This document shows positions 1,957 to 50,277 of a DNA stretch of 64,000 nt, piece after piece. The position numbers and the translations under genes were made by a program. Source of the stretch: Microbacterium ginsengiterrae (GTDB lineage Bacteria; Actinomycetota; Actinomycetes; Actinomycetales; Microbacteriaceae); contig NZ_JACHMU010000001.1 in the NCBI RefSeq assembly GCF_014205075.1, forward strand, positions 496,001 to 560,000. The letters are read 5' to 3'. Each line of letters begins with the position of its first letter. The stretch's first letter is position 1. The notes under the pieces are model-generated. The model ran no database searches, was not told the origin of the DNA, and worked only from the letters and a program-made list of their open reading frames with translations.

Positions 1957-2062
1957 GTGCCATACTGATACCGGCCCGATGGCGGGCCACGGCGAGGCCC
2001 GGCCTCACCGCATCCATCACAACGGATCGTCCGGCACGTACCTGCCGGTGAAGGAGAAAACA

Positions 2063-3166
<1,104 letters not shown>

Positions 3167-4555: not shown

Positions 4556-5194
4556 TCAGTACCCGACGGTGAAGTTCTCGCGGTGGTGCTTCGGGTTCTC
4601 GATCTCGTCGACCACGGCGATGCCGAAGTCCGCGCCGGAGATGTAGGACTCACCGGCATCATCCGTGACGAGGACCTGGCCGCCATCCCGGTACTCTCCG
4701 GTGCGCTCTCCCGGTGCGAACATGCCGAAGCCACCGGCCGGGTGGATGAAGAACCAGTCCTTGCCGCTGTCGTCGGCCTGCAGGTCCTCGAGCACGCCGA
4801 TCGCCTCCTGCGCCTCCGCCTTGAACTCCTCCGGGAAGCCGGAGTCGATCAGTCGGGGTCCACCGGGGGCGACGAGGCTCCCGCCGGCCCCGCCGACGAC
4901 ACCGAGCCGCACGTTCTCGCCGAGCGCCGCGAACAGCTCCGCCGTCGCGGCGCGGACCTTGCCGACCATGTCGCCGCGCGGCGAGACCGCCTGGATGACG
5001 ACCTCGGCCTCCTCGATCTGCTCGAGAAGGCTCGGCACGTCGAGGATGGTCCCCTCGACGTACACGGCACCGTCGACCCGTGTGGCGGGGACGGACCGGG
5101 CGACCGAGATCACCGAGTGTCCGCGTGCCACCGCCTCTGCGACGATGTGCGAGCCGGCGTAGCCGGTGCCTCCGATGACGGCGATGCGGGTCAT
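4556..5194 (-). CDS. Atypical SDR / NAD(P)H-binding oxidoreductase
   Basis: 212 residues from ATG 5194, with GGAAGGAA upstream. The N-terminus MTRIAVIGGTGYAGSHI is the Rossmann dinucleotide loop GGTGYAG of atypical short-chain dehydrogenases (NmrA/YwnB-like). It lacks the classical YxxxK catalytic pair, so it may bind NAD(P)H without acting as a typical dehydrogenase. It converges on the DUF4032 gene (5 bases apart) and lies 76 bases downstream of rlmB in the same direction. Substrate unknown. Confidence 0.8.
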   Translation of the reverse strand: MTRIAVIGGTGYAGSHIVAEAVARGHSVISVARSVPATRVDGAVYVEGTILDVPSLLEQIEEAEVVIQAVSPRGDMVGKVRAATAELFAALGENVRLGVVGGAGGSLVAPGGPRLIDSGFPEEFKAEAQEAIGVLEDLQADDSGKDWFFIHPAGGFGMFAPGERTGEYRDGGQVLVTDDAGESYISGADFGIAVVDEIENPKHHRENFTVGY

Positions 5195-5270
5195 GTGATT
5201 CCTTCCGAGGAGCAGGTGTCTGTGAGTTCGAACCGTCTGGCCCGTCGGATATTCCGGGCCGGCGCCGGAC

Positions 5271-27244: not shown

Positions 27245-28129
27245 TCAGTGCCGCGGCGACAGGAGGTACTCGTTCAGTTCTGCCGTCAGCGCGTGGTCGA
27301 CCGGGAGCGCGGCGCCGTCGACGGCGGTGACCGCCACCGCCAGCCGTACGCTCGAGACCAACCATGCGGCATCCGCCCTGGCGAGGTCGGATGCCGGGAT
27401 GCGGTCGTACCCCGCGTCGAGACCGCGCGATGCCAGATGGTCGTACACGCTGAGCTGGGTCGTCCCGTGCAGGATGCCGCCCGTGGGTTCAGGAGTCGTG
27501 AACCGGTCGCCGATTCGGAGGATGAGCGATGCGGTCGGGGCCTCCAGCACGAACCCGTCGCTGGAGAGGAAGATCGCATCGTCCGCCCCGCGCCGTCGCG
27601 CTTCGCGCAGCGCCGCCATGTTCACCGCGTATGACAGGGTCTTCGCTCCGAGCAGCAGCCACGGCGCCCGTTCGGCAGCGGCCAGGTCGTATCCGCGGTC
27701 GAGCGTGGCGACCGAGACGCCACGGGCGCGCACGGCGGAGAAGTCCGGCGCCGGTGCCGCCGTGACCCAGGCGGTCGGCGTGGGTCCGTGCTCCACTCCC
27801 CTGCTGAGGATCAGCTTGATCACGGCCTCGCCAGGCGGGCACTGGGCGGCGGCGACCGCGACGGCCTGGCGCCACTGCTCCTGGTGCGGAACAGGGAGGT
27901 CGCAGATCCGCGCGGAGTTCGCGAGGCGCTCGAGGTGCGGAACGACCTCCTGCGCGTGTCCGTCGATCACGCCGATCGACTCGAACACGCCGTCACCTCG
28001 CTGCGTGCTGAGCTCGCCGACGCTGAGCGCCGGCGCTGCAGCATCCACCTCGGTGAACGTGTCCGCGAAGTCGTCGCGGGCGTCGTCGGCGGCGACGGGA
28101 TCGATGATCAGGGCGAATCGGTGCGGCAT
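27245..28129 (-). CDS. Class IV PLP aminotransferase / aminodeoxychorismate lyase-like
   Basis: 294 residues from ATG 28129. The PLP lysine lies in LLGAKTLSYAVNMAALREARRRGADDAIFLSSDGFVLEAPTASL, which is the fold-type IV core, followed by PEPTGGILHGTTQLSVYDHL. Members are branched-chain or D-amino-acid transaminases or 4-amino-4-deoxychorismate lyase (PabC). Actinobacterial proteins of this length are usually labelled aminodeoxychorismate lyase, which would make p-aminobenzoate for folate. No pabA/B is nearby, so specificity stays open. Upstream lies a 163-base gap holding a compact RNA structure (see 28186-28265). Confidence 0.78.
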   Translation of the reverse strand: MPHRFALIIDPVAADDARDDFADTFTEVDAAAPALSVGELSTQRGDGVFESIGVIDGHAQEVVPHLERLANSARICDLPVPHQEQWRQAVAVAAAQCPPGEAVIKLILSRGVEHGPTPTAWVTAAPAPDFSAVRARGVSVATLDRGYDLAAAERAPWLLLGAKTLSYAVNMAALREARRRGADDAIFLSSDGFVLEAPTASLILRIGDRFTTPEPTGGILHGTTQLSVYDHLASRGLDAGYDRIPASDLARADAAWLVSSVRLAVAVTAVDGAALPVDHALTAELNEYLLSPRH

Positions 28130-28174
28130 GAGATGACTCTACGACGGTCAGGAATACTCGGCGCGCGAGGACGT

Positions 28175-28180
28175 TACAAT
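28175..28180 (+). promoter_or_regulatory. -10 hexamer TACAAT ahead of the structured RNA
   Basis: TACAAT differs from TATAAT at one base and ends 6-7 bases before the first paired base of the structure at 28186, a natural place for transcription to begin. No good -35 is visible (GAATAC at the right distance), so the promoter call is tentative. Confidence 0.4.
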
Positions 28181-28185
28181 GGAGT

Positions 28186-28265
28186 GGCCGGGCCGCATAA
28201 CCCCGGGCTCCAAATTCTGCCGCTGCGAGCGGCCTTCCGCCGAGAGGCGTTCTTGCGGCCCGGTC
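28186..28265 (+). ncRNA. Candidate structured RNA with a closed three-way junction
   Basis: An outer 12-bp stem pairs 28186-28197 with 28254-28265. It encloses a 21-base strand beginning TAACCCCGGG, then hairpin 1 (GCCGCT/AGCGGC, loop GCG; 28219-28233), the linker CTTC, hairpin 2 (CGCC/GGCG closed by a GAGA tetraloop of GNRA type; 28238-28249) and TTCT. The outer stem holds one G-T pair (28187/28264), which is a stable G-U wobble only in plus-strand RNA. Together with TACAAT upstream, this suggests an RNA read from the plus strand. No protein gene follows on that strand. I cannot match it to SRP RNA, tmRNA, RNase P, 6C or a riboswitch I know. Confidence 0.5.
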
Positions 28266-28292
28266 TTCTCATGTCAGGGCGCAGGGCGCCGG

Positions 28293-28922
28293 TCAGAGCA
28301 ATCCGTCGGCACGCCAGAGGCCTGCGGCGGCCGACAGATCGTTGGCATACGTGTGCAGACGTCGTGCGCGCGCCGTGAGCTCCGACGCGCGGCCCGGCTC
28401 GGTCGCCTCGTAGTCGTCGGCGATGTGGGTGGCGCCGGACACCTGCACGCGGCAGAAGGCCGCCGCGCGGTCGAGCGCGACGGAGAAGTCACCGCGGAAC
28501 ACGCCGCGCAGGATGGTGTCGATCAGTGCCACGAGCTCTTCGGGGCCCGCCGGCGCCGGCGCGCCGGCGACCGCGGCATCCGCCGAGGCGAGCTCCACGC
28601 GCCCGCGCTCGTACAGCAGGGCGGCCGTCCGCGGGTCATGGTGGATCGCGAGCTGCAGGAGGTAGAGGCGCCAGAGCGACCCCGGCAACGACACGGCCGG
28701 AGCGACCGCCCAGAGTTCTGCGATGTCGTCGATCCCGTGCTCTGCGGTGAAGGCGATGAGGCGATCGGTGCTCTCCCCGCTCTCATCCGCACGGGCACGG
28801 GTGAGGAGTGCGGACGCCGTGGCGTGCGCGACGCGCACGGCCTCTGCCGAGTCGCCGGAGCCCGCGATGTTGTCGAACGCGGAGGACGGGCGGCGGACGG
28901 GGCGGTGGAACTGCTCGGGCAT
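28293..28922 (-). CDS. Conserved actinobacterial protein of unknown function
   Basis: 209 residues from ATG 28922. It is Ala-rich and predicted mostly helical, without signal peptide, membrane segment or known catalytic motif. One segment (GSLWRLYLLQLAIHHDPRTAALLYERGR) looks like a conserved core helix pair. It follows rskA by 19 bases on the same strand and may be the last gene of the dipZ-sigK-rskA transcript. Homologues in related genomes have, to my recollection, sometimes been labelled 'RNA polymerase subunit beta'; nothing here resembles RpoB. Confidence 0.65.
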   Translation of the reverse strand: MPEQFHRPVRRPSSAFDNIAGSGDSAEAVRVAHATASALLTRARADESGESTDRLIAFTAEHGIDDIAELWAVAPAVSLPGSLWRLYLLQLAIHHDPRTAALLYERGRVELASADAAVAGAPAPAGPEELVALIDTILRGVFRGDFSVALDRAAAFCRVQVSGATHIADDYEATEPGRASELTARARRLHTYANDLSAAAGLWRADGLL

Positions 28923-28941
28923 CCGTCCAGGGTACTCGCGC

Positions 28942-29730
28942 TCAGGCGGTGGGGATGGCGAGGATCGGCGCCGAGGACGGCGTACCGGTCGGCGAGCCGC
29001 CCGCGGGTTCGACGGTCACCGCGATCACGTCGCCGGCGCGCATCGCACCGTCCAACAACGCGGTGGCCGCTCCCGCATCCGTGTCGAAGATGCCGGCGGG
29101 CAGCGCATCCTCTCCACGCACGAACCACAGCTGGTACGTCTGATCGCCCTCGAGCGGGTCGAGCCCCTCGGTGACGAGCACGGCGCGTCCGACCGATGCT
29201 GACCAGTGCGCCGTGGCCTGCGCGCCGGCGCCGAGGTCGACGGTGGCCTGCTCGGCGTCGGGAGCCGACTCGATCTGCTCGAGCGCGACGACGGATGCCG
29301 GTGGCGTCAGTTGCGGGATGAGGACGGCAGCGCCGATCCCGAGACCGGCGATCAGGGCGACGGATGCGGCGAGCGCGAACAGGCGGCGGCCACGGCGACG
29401 CGGCGCAGGGGCGGGTTGCTCCTGCGGTGCCGGTGCCGGTTCGGCTCGAGGCGCCGGATCGACCCGCGCAACGGGCTTCTCGGTCGGCGGCGACGACTCG
29501 CCCTGCGGGATCGATGCGATCTGCTCGAGCAGCGCGGCCCTGATGCGTACAGGGGGCGCCTCGGCGGTGACGACACCGGCGAGAGCCGCAGCGGTCGCCT
29601 CATCGTCCTCCGCGATCGCGGCCCACTCGGGGTGTGCGAGAAGGGCGTCGGTGAAACGTCGCTCGTCGGCGTCGGACAGCGCGTGCAGTGCGCGGCCGGC
29701 CGCCAGTTCGGCGAACTCACTCTCGTTCAT
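28942..29730 (-). CDS. rskA: Anti-sigma factor, RskA type
   Basis: 262 residues. The N-terminal about 50 residues (ELAAGRALHALSDADERRFTDALLAHPEW) form the sigma-binding helices without the His/Cys zinc site, as in RskA/RsgI-like members. A Pro/Ala/Glu-rich linker leads to one membrane helix (about 117-139), and outside lies the RskA C-terminal beta domain (QTYQLWFVRGEDALPAGIF, DVIAVTVEPAGGSPTGTPS). Cleavage of such proteins inside the membrane frees the sigma factor. ATGA overlap with sigK gives tight 1:1 coupling. Confidence 0.87.
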   Translation of the reverse strand: MNESEFAELAAGRALHALSDADERRFTDALLAHPEWAAIAEDDEATAAALAGVVTAEAPPVRIRAALLEQIASIPQGESSPPTEKPVARVDPAPRAEPAPAPQEQPAPAPRRRGRRLFALAASVALIAGLGIGAAVLIPQLTPPASVVALEQIESAPDAEQATVDLGAGAQATAHWSASVGRAVLVTEGLDPLEGDQTYQLWFVRGEDALPAGIFDTDAGAATALLDGAMRAGDVIAVTVEPAGGSPTGTPSSAPILAIPTA

Positions 29731-30326
29731 ACGTTCACCCCCATCTCGTTCCTCAGTCGGGACAGTCCGTCCCGCATTCTCGTCTTCACGGTTCCCAGTG
29801 GTGCCTTCACGAGGACGGCGATCTCGCTTTGAGAGTAACCGCCGTAATACGACAGGACGAGCGCCTCGCGTTGCGGCTCAGGGAGGGTACCCAGCGCCGA
29901 GACGACGCGGTCGCCCTCGATGCTCAGCTCCACCTGCTCGGCGACGCTGTCGTGTGCGACGCCGATGTCGCGTATGCCCGCTCGGACATCCCGATCCGTG
30001 CTGGACTGCGACGCCCTCACACGATCGACCGCGCGGCGGTGGGCGATCGTGAGGATCCAGGTGCGTCCTTGACCTCTGTTCGGAACGAACCGCCCGGCGG
30101 ATTGCCAGATCTCCAGGAAGACCTCCTGCAGGACCTCTTCGCTCTGCGAGCGGTTGACGAGGACGCGGAGGATGAGACCGAACACGCGCGAGGACAGCAG
30201 GTCGTAGAGTTCGGCGAACGCCCGCTGGTCGCCGCGGGCGACGCGGACGAGGAGATCGGCGGCGAGGTCTCCCGCCGAACCGTCCTCCGGTACGTCCACA
30301 CCGTCGATGACCATCTCCCCAAGCAT
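29727..30326 (-). CDS. sigK: ECF RNA polymerase sigma factor, SigK type
   Basis: 199 residues from ATG 30326, behind GGGGAG. Region 2 (DQRAFAELYDLLSSRVFGLILRVL, then QEVFLEIWQSAGRF, GRTWILTIAHRRAVDRVRA) and region 4 (LPEPQREALVLSYYGGYSQSEIAVLVKAPLGTVKTRMRDGLSRLR) are complete, the latter with the HTH that reads the -35 box. Its partner rskA overlaps downstream. dipZ ends 42 bases upstream on the same strand, so sigK may be carried on the dipZ transcript and so auto-regulated. The assignment to SigK rests on this context plus the RskA-type partner. Confidence 0.85.
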   Translation of the reverse strand: MLGEMVIDGVDVPEDGSAGDLAADLLVRVARGDQRAFAELYDLLSSRVFGLILRVLVNRSQSEEVLQEVFLEIWQSAGRFVPNRGQGRTWILTIAHRRAVDRVRASQSSTDRDVRAGIRDIGVAHDSVAEQVELSIEGDRVVSALGTLPEPQREALVLSYYGGYSQSEIAVLVKAPLGTVKTRMRDGLSRLRNEMGVNV

Positions 30327-49336: not shown

Positions 49337-50277
49337 GCAGGCGCAGCACTGCACACCCGGCCCTCATCGCGCTCGGCGCGGTGGGGGCCGTCGGTGTGGC
49401 ATGCGCCGTGTGGGGCGTCGGGATCGAGCGGCACCTGTACACCGTGCGCGAGGTGTCCGCAGCGGCACTCCCGCCCGGCACCGCACCGCTGCGCGTGCTG
49501 CACGTCTCCGACGCGCACATGGCACCGTGGCAGCGCAGGAAGCAGGACTGGCTCGCCTCGCTCGCCGACCTGCAGCCCGACCTCGTCGTCAACACCGGTG
49601 ACAACCTCGGCCACCGCGACGGACTCGTCGGCATCCGCCGCGCGTTCGAACCCTTCGCGGGGACTCCCGGGGTGTTCGTCCACGGCTCGAACGACGTCCA
49701 TGGCCCGACCCCGCGCAACCCGCTGCGCTACTTCGCCGGACCGTCGAAACGGAAGATCACAGTTGAGAAGCTCGACACCGACGCACTCGACCGGTTCCTC
49801 GGCGAGGATCTCGGATGGGCCGATCTCAACAACCGCGCCGCCACCGTCCGCGTCGGAGACCGCGACGTGGACTTCTTCGGAGTGAGCGACGCGCACCGCG
49901 ACTGGGACGACCTCGACGTGCTCCCTGAGGCCATCGCCGGCCTCGGCACGAGAGAAGCCTCCCGTCCGCTGCTCGGTGTCACGCACGCCCCCTACCAGCG
50001 CGTGCTGAACAGGTTCACCGACCTCGGTGCCGACGCCCTCTTCGGCGGGCACACGCATGGCGGCCAGGTGTGTCTGCCGTTCTTCGGCACGCTGGTGGCC
50101 AACTGCGACATCCCGCTGTCGCAGGCGAAGGGACTGAGCACGTGGACGCACGGCGGGCGCAGCGTCCCGCTCAACGTCAGCGCCGGCTGCGGCCATTCCA
50201 TCTACGCGCCGGTGAGATTCGCCTGCCGCCCGGAGGCGACACTGCTGACTCTGACCGCTCGCGACACGCCCGCATGA
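49333..50277 (+). CDS. Membrane-anchored metallophosphoesterase
   Basis: 314 residues from TTG 49333. An N-terminal hydrophobic helix (residues about 9-28) anchors it. The calcineurin-like metal ligands follow in order: VSDAHMAPW, NTGDNLGHRD, HGSNDVHGP, VTHAPYQR and GGHTHGGQV. Relatives such as YkuE and YaeI are membrane-bound phosphatases; co-translation with a PBP suggests a substrate in the envelope, such as a lipid-linked phosphate. That is inference from context. Confidence 0.85.
   Translation: MSRRSTAHPALIALGAVGAVGVACAVWGVGIERHLYTVREVSAAALPPGTAPLRVLHVSDAHMAPWQRRKQDWLASLADLQPDLVVNTGDNLGHRDGLVGIRRAFEPFAGTPGVFVHGSNDVHGPTPRNPLRYFAGPSKRKITVEKLDTDALDRFLGEDLGWADLNNRAATVRVGDRDVDFFGVSDAHRDWDDLDVLPEAIAGLGTREASRPLLGVTHAPYQRVLNRFTDLGADALFGGHTHGGQVCLPFFGTLVANCDIPLSQAKGLSTWTHGGRSVPLNVSAGCGHSIYAPVRFACRPEATLLTLTARDTPA

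Follow-up and report, generated by a model that had tools for sequence, protein, structure and literature searches.

The class Actinomycetes includes mycobacteria, Streptomyces and bifidobacteria, and to our knowledge class-wide non-coding RNAs in it are few. The Ms1 and 6S RNAs are standalone, structured molecules with a long closing stem, as in the RNA described here, and are larger than it. A further point of comparison is scr2952 of Streptomyces coelicolor, an sRNA reportedly described by Vockenhuber et al. in 2011. Ms1 and 6S RNAs are described in PMC9130861 as binding RNA polymerase; the present RNA has no Rfam match. The 6C RNA (RF01066) resembles the present RNA in being an actinobacterial sRNA with a class-level spread and an accessible C-rich sequence; it is characterised, according to PMC8388888, by two stem-loops that contain at least six C residues each, whereas the present RNA has a run of four C residues located in a junction strand. 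As the loops of the latter are TGCGA and GAGA and RF01066 did not match, 6C RNA was rejected as an identity. The same paper describes scr2952, which may occupy the same locus as one copy of the present RNA, beside HelD (SCO2952), as a genus-conserved transcript of confirmed expression; it is treated there as a Streptomyces transcript only, without a fold, a class-wide distribution or a promoter class. Genes of the SigH/SigR regulon (trxB1, mshC, mca and others, as given in PMC10012870) share the promoter pattern GGAAT-N17-19-GTT with the present RNA gene; these genes code for proteins, while the link of the RNA gene to the regulon is predicted, from the promoter pattern only. A literature search found no class-wide RNA of such description, and as most subscription papers fall outside its coverage, absence is unproven.

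The window analysed was a 64,000-nucleotide stretch of Microbacterium ginsengiterrae DNA. A structured RNA gene is located at 28186-28266 on the plus strand, where two minus-strand genes leave a gap of 163 bases. One of these (27245-28129, −), outside the RNA gene, encodes a class IV aminotransferase (aminodeoxychorismate lyase-like; PF01063), for which the best NCBIfam lyase models scored below their own cut-offs. The other (28293-28922, −) encodes a 209-aa protein without a Pfam domain, the 3′ end of whose gene usually points towards the RNA; among the best 120 of 1180 relatives of this protein, the close ones are mostly from Microbacterium and many are named 'DNA-directed RNA polymerase subunit beta' in public records. 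A plus-strand ORF spanning the RNA (28179-29174) was not taken as a gene since homologue lengths differ by single bases. Genes for an RskA-type anti-sigma factor (PF10099) and an ECF sigma factor adjoin the RNA region (28942-30326, −), the latter being called by sequence and a weak SigH_actino match, and such genes recur close to the RNA in relatives.

A covariance search with Rfam 15 (4227 families) at E ≤ 10 found nothing overlapping 28186-28266, in agreement with the view of an earlier, sequence-only reading that this structure fits no known RNA family. At the Rfam cut-offs, the whole window yielded four tRNAs and an msiK RNA, none at the RNA, and nine homologue loci yielded two tRNAs only. 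The msiK RNA (RF01747) is located at 2005-2063 (+) and scored 65.3 bits against a cut-off of 33. Three loci of group g44, which is probably Streptomyces as judged partly from gene order beside a HelD gene, gave nine sub-threshold matches at E ≤ 5, one of which overlapped the RNA; this match, to Thr_leader, was rejected at 29.5 bits against a cut-off of 55 (E 0.026). Also rejected were a ZTP-riboswitch-like match on the minus strand (27758-27846; 21.7 bits, cut-off 39), judged a chance match inside the aminotransferase gene, and SRP RNA, as the only RF00169 match of the genome is elsewhere (G000:C1:566182-566278).

Homologues were detected far outside Microbacterium. Searching with 28130-28292, blastn gave matches at E ≤ 2e-5 in 54 of 58 genomes, the source genome included, and chance-level matches only (E 0.007-0.6) in the remaining four. 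The distant matches, from other families, cover approximately 28187-28263, which is the RNA, while the flanks align poorly. Two covariance models were built, R1 from 35 sequences and R2 from 72 sequences, the latter picked greedily at less than 90% identity from 162 distinct sequences; the 81-position core at 28186-28266 scores 90.9 bits with R1 and 85.5 bits with R2. Model R1 detected the RNA in three of the four genomes poorly served by blastn (G038, G051 and G056), with G049 not among the matches listed. In overlapping samples of the class, R1 matched 178 of 296 genomes and R2 matched 240 of 394; the family is not universal, 154 of the 394 genomes being without an R2 match. Phylum-wide samples were matched in 14 of 198 (R1) and 18 of 246 genomes (R2), every one of them within the class, and these samples therefore serve as a false-positive control as well. 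The RNA is present in a single copy in its own genome, where the next R2 match has 20.3 bits (E 1.15). A pattern scan of named genomes, with a pattern that deliberately omits the g44 (probable Streptomyces) form, found at least 80 loci, including ones in Cellulomonas, Brevibacterium, Arthrobacter, Rothia, Bifidobacterium, Actinomyces, Nocardioides, Geodermatophilus, Gordonia, Nocardia and [Mycobacterium] manitobense, and R1 confirmed 80 of 80 (one cut at a contig end). The homologue set used below came from 180 searched sources and 183 matches, of which 179 were kept (162 distinct sequences, 160 with 60 nt upstream); those left out were the antisense matches L146 + and L060 + (about 30 bits), the long variant L122 and the end-truncated L150. 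It is almost certain that the RNA represents a real family.

In g44, genes for a malic enzyme and a UvrD/HelD-like protein flank the RNA, and we take SCO2951 to be the malic enzyme. SCO2952 is HelD according to PMC8655204, and in PMC8388888 scr2952 is among 11 ncRNAs of confirmed expression and is one of the five of these conserved in more than half of the tested Streptomyces. On this gene-order match only, there is about an even chance that the RNA is a known but uncatalogued sRNA, scr2952, seen in a new genus. PMC8388888 also states that all 11 ncRNAs are in Rfam, yet no Rfam family reached its cut-off here, and scr2952 is missing from the S. lividans Rfam hits tabulated in PMC8079986. The identity would also leave the class-wide spread unexplained. 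The proposal of the sequence-only reading that this is a new small RNA is thus supported as regards a small RNA, while the word 'new' has to be qualified, given that scr2952 may be one of the orthologues; what is claimed as new is, therefore, the description of the family and not the first sighting of every member. The present analysis may supply a fold and a wide context for an sRNA previously described as a transcript of Streptomyces.

By sequence comparison, the class-wide family is read in the plus-strand sense and has a predicted fold consisting of an outer stem (P1), a short helix (P2), an exposed strand and two hairpins (A and B), preceded by a promoter pattern. The 12-bp P1 (28186-28197 with 28254-28265) has a single G-T pair (28187-28264) and lies precisely where the sequence-only reading had placed it. 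That reading had also described two hairpins, one with a GNRA tetraloop, and these were confirmed as hairpin A (28219-28233, GCCGC-TGCGA-GCGGC) and hairpin B (28238-28249, CGCC-GAGA-GGCG, where GAGA is the GNRA loop). A third element, a 21-base single strand at 28198-28218, was correctly located but is not wholly unpaired, as it contains one side of P2, a helix of two pairs (28199-28200 with 28250-28251) that adjoins hairpin B. Helix P2 extends the 3′ strand of hairpin B and, hence, the conserved strand and hairpin A form an insertion in one helix. The conserved unpaired strand itself is CCCCGGGCTCCA (28201-28212; family form CCCCGGGYYYCA), the presumed functional site.

Both P1 and P2 covary. 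In an alignment of the 72 sequences used for R2 (A4), 14 of 22 pairs exhibited changes on both sides with pairing kept, in a total of 170 cells, compared with means of 10.4 pairs and 49.4 cells for shuffled controls and maxima of 9 pairs and 23 cells for slid structures. Pairs 1 to 11 of P1 each had two-sided changes; pair 11-70 was non-standard in 41 of 70 readable rows. The P2 pairs 14-66 and 15-65 occur as AU, GC and UA, and 15-65 also as CG, with non-standard combinations in 9 and 8 of 72 rows, respectively; across lineages the helix takes the forms AA/UU, AG/CU, GA/UC, GU/AC, GG/CC, AC/GU and UG/CA. A tree-aware test, which was not R-scape, was applied to the 162 sequences (MAFFT alignment made without structure, a FastTree tree and 200 nulls obtained by permuting Fitch substitutions within branches; columns less than 60% occupied removed, reducing 100 to 81). 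Seven of 23 pairs had E < 0.05 within the structure set, namely 1-80, 3-78, 7-74 and 12-69 in P1, 14-66 (E printed as 0.05) and 15-65 in P2, and 35-47 in hairpin A. Over all 3081 column pairs, only the structure pairs 1-80 and 15-65 (E 0.005) passed E < 0.05. Pair 15-65 emerged from the initial covariation scan as the one unlisted pair that exceeded the null, and pair 14-66 is post hoc, having been added on account of 15-65. Pair 52-65, an extension of hairpin B in model R1, was dropped as it had a covariation score of −4.7 and position 65 pairs with 15. Of the outcomes that the sequence-only reading had named as refuting its proposal, a lack of conservation, a lack of covariation and a clear Rfam hit were each checked for, and all three checks came out in favour of the proposal.

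In hairpins A and B most pairs are invariant and are supported by conservation, with one covarying pair in hairpin A (35-47: CG in 147 sequences, UA in 14 and GC in 1); hairpin A is GTCGC/GCGAC in Nocardia, [Mycobacterium] manitobense, Antrihabitans and the probable Streptomyces copies. Hairpin B exhibits no covariation because its pairs are nearly invariant. Fold energies were unremarkable, with 22 of 200 shuffles of 28175-28290 folding as well as the plus strand (z −1.2) and 8 of 200 as well as the minus strand (z −2.1); the case therefore rests on conservation and covariation. The computed minimum-energy fold of the window sequence (−42.9) hides part of the exposed strand, compared with −38.9 for the proposed fold. 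An alternative fold, with CCCC and GGC paired to hairpin B, has the lower energy in the window but was rejected; over 159 sequences, its index pair had a mean probability of 0.07 versus 0.55 for the index pair of hairpin B. Covariation cannot decide between these two, as the bases involved are near invariant. Over the final 23 pairs in 162 homologues there were 3324 Watson-Crick, 176 G-U, 18 A-C and 159 other cells (219 G-U versus 20 A-C with pair 52-65 still counted). The excess of G-U over A-C indicates a plus-strand RNA, the sense that the sequence-only reading had preferred on account of a single pair.

The promoter region contains two overlapping patterns. The −10 box TACAAT seen in the sequence-only reading was found at 28175-28180 (+), five bases before the stem, and is of the housekeeping type. 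That reading had missed a SigH/SigR-type promoter formed by a −35 element, GGAAT (28151-28155, +), and a −10 element, GTT (28173-28175, +), with a spacer of 17, so that the SigH/SigR regulon pattern GGAAT/C-N17-19-GTT is present at promoter distance at 28151-28175. The SigR consensus is GGAAT-N18-19-GTT according to PMC9205884; according to PMC10012870, Corynebacterium SigH has the same consensus, single promoters have N17 or N18, and the promoters that SigH shares with SigE have GGAAC. Among homologues, a TANNNT starting at −20 to −9 was detected in 122 of 160, whereas the slice at −60 to −49, used as a control, had one in 1 of 160; a housekeeping-like −35 (TTGA patterns) at the correct spacing accompanied TANNNT in only 1 of 160. 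A search for GGAAY-N15-21-GTT matched 69 of 160 homologues, many of them Microbacterium or close kin, and returned spacers of 17, 18 and 19 only (20, 41 and 8 rows); mononucleotide-shuffled sets averaged 0.8 matches and never exceeded 4, and the downstream flank and the reverse complement gave none. The motif was absent upstream of the other 91. Three promoter classes were observed among named loci: GGAAY-N17/18-GTT without TANNNT (Nocardia, Gordonia, Antrihabitans, [Mycobacterium], Geodermatophilus, Georgenia and Cellulomonas telluris), both patterns together (Microbacterium, Microcella, Agromyces, a Nocardioides and g44 rows) and TANNNT alone. Over 50 taxon labels, some above genus level, 12 had the GGAAY type, 36 had TANNNT and 8 had neither.

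The pattern GGAAT-N17-19-GTT occurs three times in the whole window, at the RNA, at 50199 (−) and at 5255 (−). The genome encodes a SigH_actino protein (306.2 bits, cut-off 251.55), and its sigH gene has a GGGGAAT-N18-GTT approximately 140 bases before the SigH_actino match. It is, hence, likely that the RNA is transcribed by SigH/SigR, the thiol-oxidative/heat stress sigma factor, in the lineages with the motif, a role that would be combined with that of a housekeeping −10 in the present genome. Downstream of P1, a T-rich tail (28266-28272, +) may act as a terminator in the Microbacterium-like lineage, where the T fraction after position 81 (49 rows) was 0.84, 0.69, 0.47, 0.35, 0.29, 0.69, 0.35, 0.37 and 0.16 and then about 0.1. 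The tract of the window itself (TTCTCAT) is weak and, hence, the 3′ end is a guess. The predicted transcript would be about 85 to 90 nt in length, from approximately 28184/28186 to approximately 28272, with both ends being predictions.

The exposed strand is near invariant. In CCCCGGGYYYCA, columns C17-C19, G21, G22 and A27 were identical in 162 of 162 rows (also 72 of 72), positions 24 and 25 were always pyrimidines and position 23 was C or T in 154 of 161 rows; changes in the YYY part are mainly from one pyrimidine to another (CUC, UCC, CCC, CCU and CUU). On balance, we think that the RNA is probably a stress-linked, trans-acting sRNA, produced from an autonomous single-copy gene, that would expose this near-invariant strand. 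Action in trans is suggested because the neighbours differ while the strand stays near invariant. P1 would protect the ends of the RNA, P2 and the GNRA hairpin B would keep the strand open, and, as the least certain step, the RNA would present the unpaired strand in trans, most likely for pairing with purine-rich (Shine-Dalgarno-like) stretches of mRNAs. Action by base pairing is put forward tentatively; antisense pairing would not require CCCCGGG to be as strictly invariant as it is.

The same invariance is the basis of the main rival, that the RNA binds a protein or ribonucleoprotein (RNA polymerase, the ribosome or an RNA chaperone) with the invariant strand and the GNRA hairpin forming a tertiary or protein site. 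CCCCGGG, the stem of hairpin A and hairpin B are near invariant across families, as is typical of protein-contacting RNAs. The eight long paralogues that were read, six from g44 and two from another family (L122:5001-5108 and L274-L280, at about 3001-3110), point in the same direction: hairpin A is swapped for a different, longer central element, yet CCCCGGGCCTCA is kept in 8 of 8 and the CGCCGAGAGGCG hairpin is exact in 6 of 8. The pyrimidine drift within the YYY part, however, also suits pairing with purine-rich mRNA, and we consider protein binding somewhat unlikely as the mode of action. Six of the eight long paralogues are preceded by GGAAC-N18-GTT and the other two by GGAAG-N18 or N16-GTT; a terminator-like hairpin was seen by eye downstream.

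Neighbouring genes and the relative orientation of the RNA vary from lineage to lineage. Context was counted with a crude ORF finder at 140 loci, with some genomes counted twice and short-flank loci (L001-L037 and L079-L120) excluded. The most constant neighbour was a homologue of the 209-aa protein, within about 3 kb of the RNA in 80 of 140 loci; of 84 such genes, 50 were upstream on the same strand, 31 were convergent and 3 were arranged otherwise, so that the RNA is mostly at the 3′ end of this gene in either orientation. A gene of the PhoU_div cluster lay downstream on the strand of the RNA in 30 of 140 loci (e.g., L039, L047, L053, L155 and L193), in 22 of them at 20 to 374 nt, and a PHO4-type transporter gene followed the RNA in 27; one of two scanned members of the PhoU_div cluster matched PF01865. 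This arrangement would suit a cis-acting leader or attenuator of a downstream gene, ancestrally of a PhoU_div-PHO4 phosphate transporter operon. Even the commonest same-strand downstream gene, that of the PhoU_div cluster, was however present in no more than those 30 of 140 loci, so that relatives do not share one downstream gene. In the window, the next plus-strand gene appears to be about 4 kb downstream according to the ORF list, in agreement with the earlier remark that this is no obvious mRNA leader; elsewhere the neighbours include malic enzyme and a UvrD/HelD-type protein (g44), Zincin_1, oxoglutarate dehydrogenase and others. In addition, the distance from TANNNT or GTT to the stem is narrow, and the RNA is followed by the T-rich tail in the Microbacterium-like lineage or by the terminator-like hairpin in the long paralogues. 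As the neighbourhood changes while the promoter position is constant, an independent RNA is argued for and a cis-acting leader is improbable. It was also observed that the RNA lies upstream of a PhoU_div-PHO4 operon in several families. Genes for ABC-transporter ATPases and permeases were near the RNA in 43 and 38 of the 140 loci, respectively, and the ABC transporter near the RNA in the window is, by our own reading, of the phosphate (pst) type.

An inverted-repeat DNA element, or a leader of the aminotransferase gene read from the minus strand, would fit a start of the RNA 56 nt upstream of that gene, the near symmetry of the stem and the slightly better folding of the minus strand relative to shuffles, but is highly improbable given the G-U excess (p about 1e-33 assuming equal strands and independent cells, which the cells are not), the presence of the SigH/SigR pattern upstream on the plus strand with none in the reverse complement or downstream flank, and the lack of any aminotransferase hit beside the RNA at all 20 loci examined in other families.

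A family present in about 60% of sampled class genomes, with no Rfam match and preceded in several lineages by the promoter pattern of a stress sigma factor, would add a non-coding arm to the thiol-stress response; a covariance model of the family and a clear candidate for its functional site are already at hand. A broader and more speculative proposal, which we regard as unlikely, is that this uncatalogued class-wide family is a non-coding output of SigH/SigR and a global effector, with CCCCGGGYYYCA and the GNRA hairpin docking on a conserved cellular machine. Under this proposal, duplicated copies, comprising the extra copies and the long GGAAC-type paralogues of the probable Streptomyces, would have diverged into versions that differ in their induction. 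Some other genomes (e.g., G133 and G254) have two or three copies of the RNA at dispersed sites, and one locus (L129) carries a tandem duplicate at 5001-5083 and 5182-5266.
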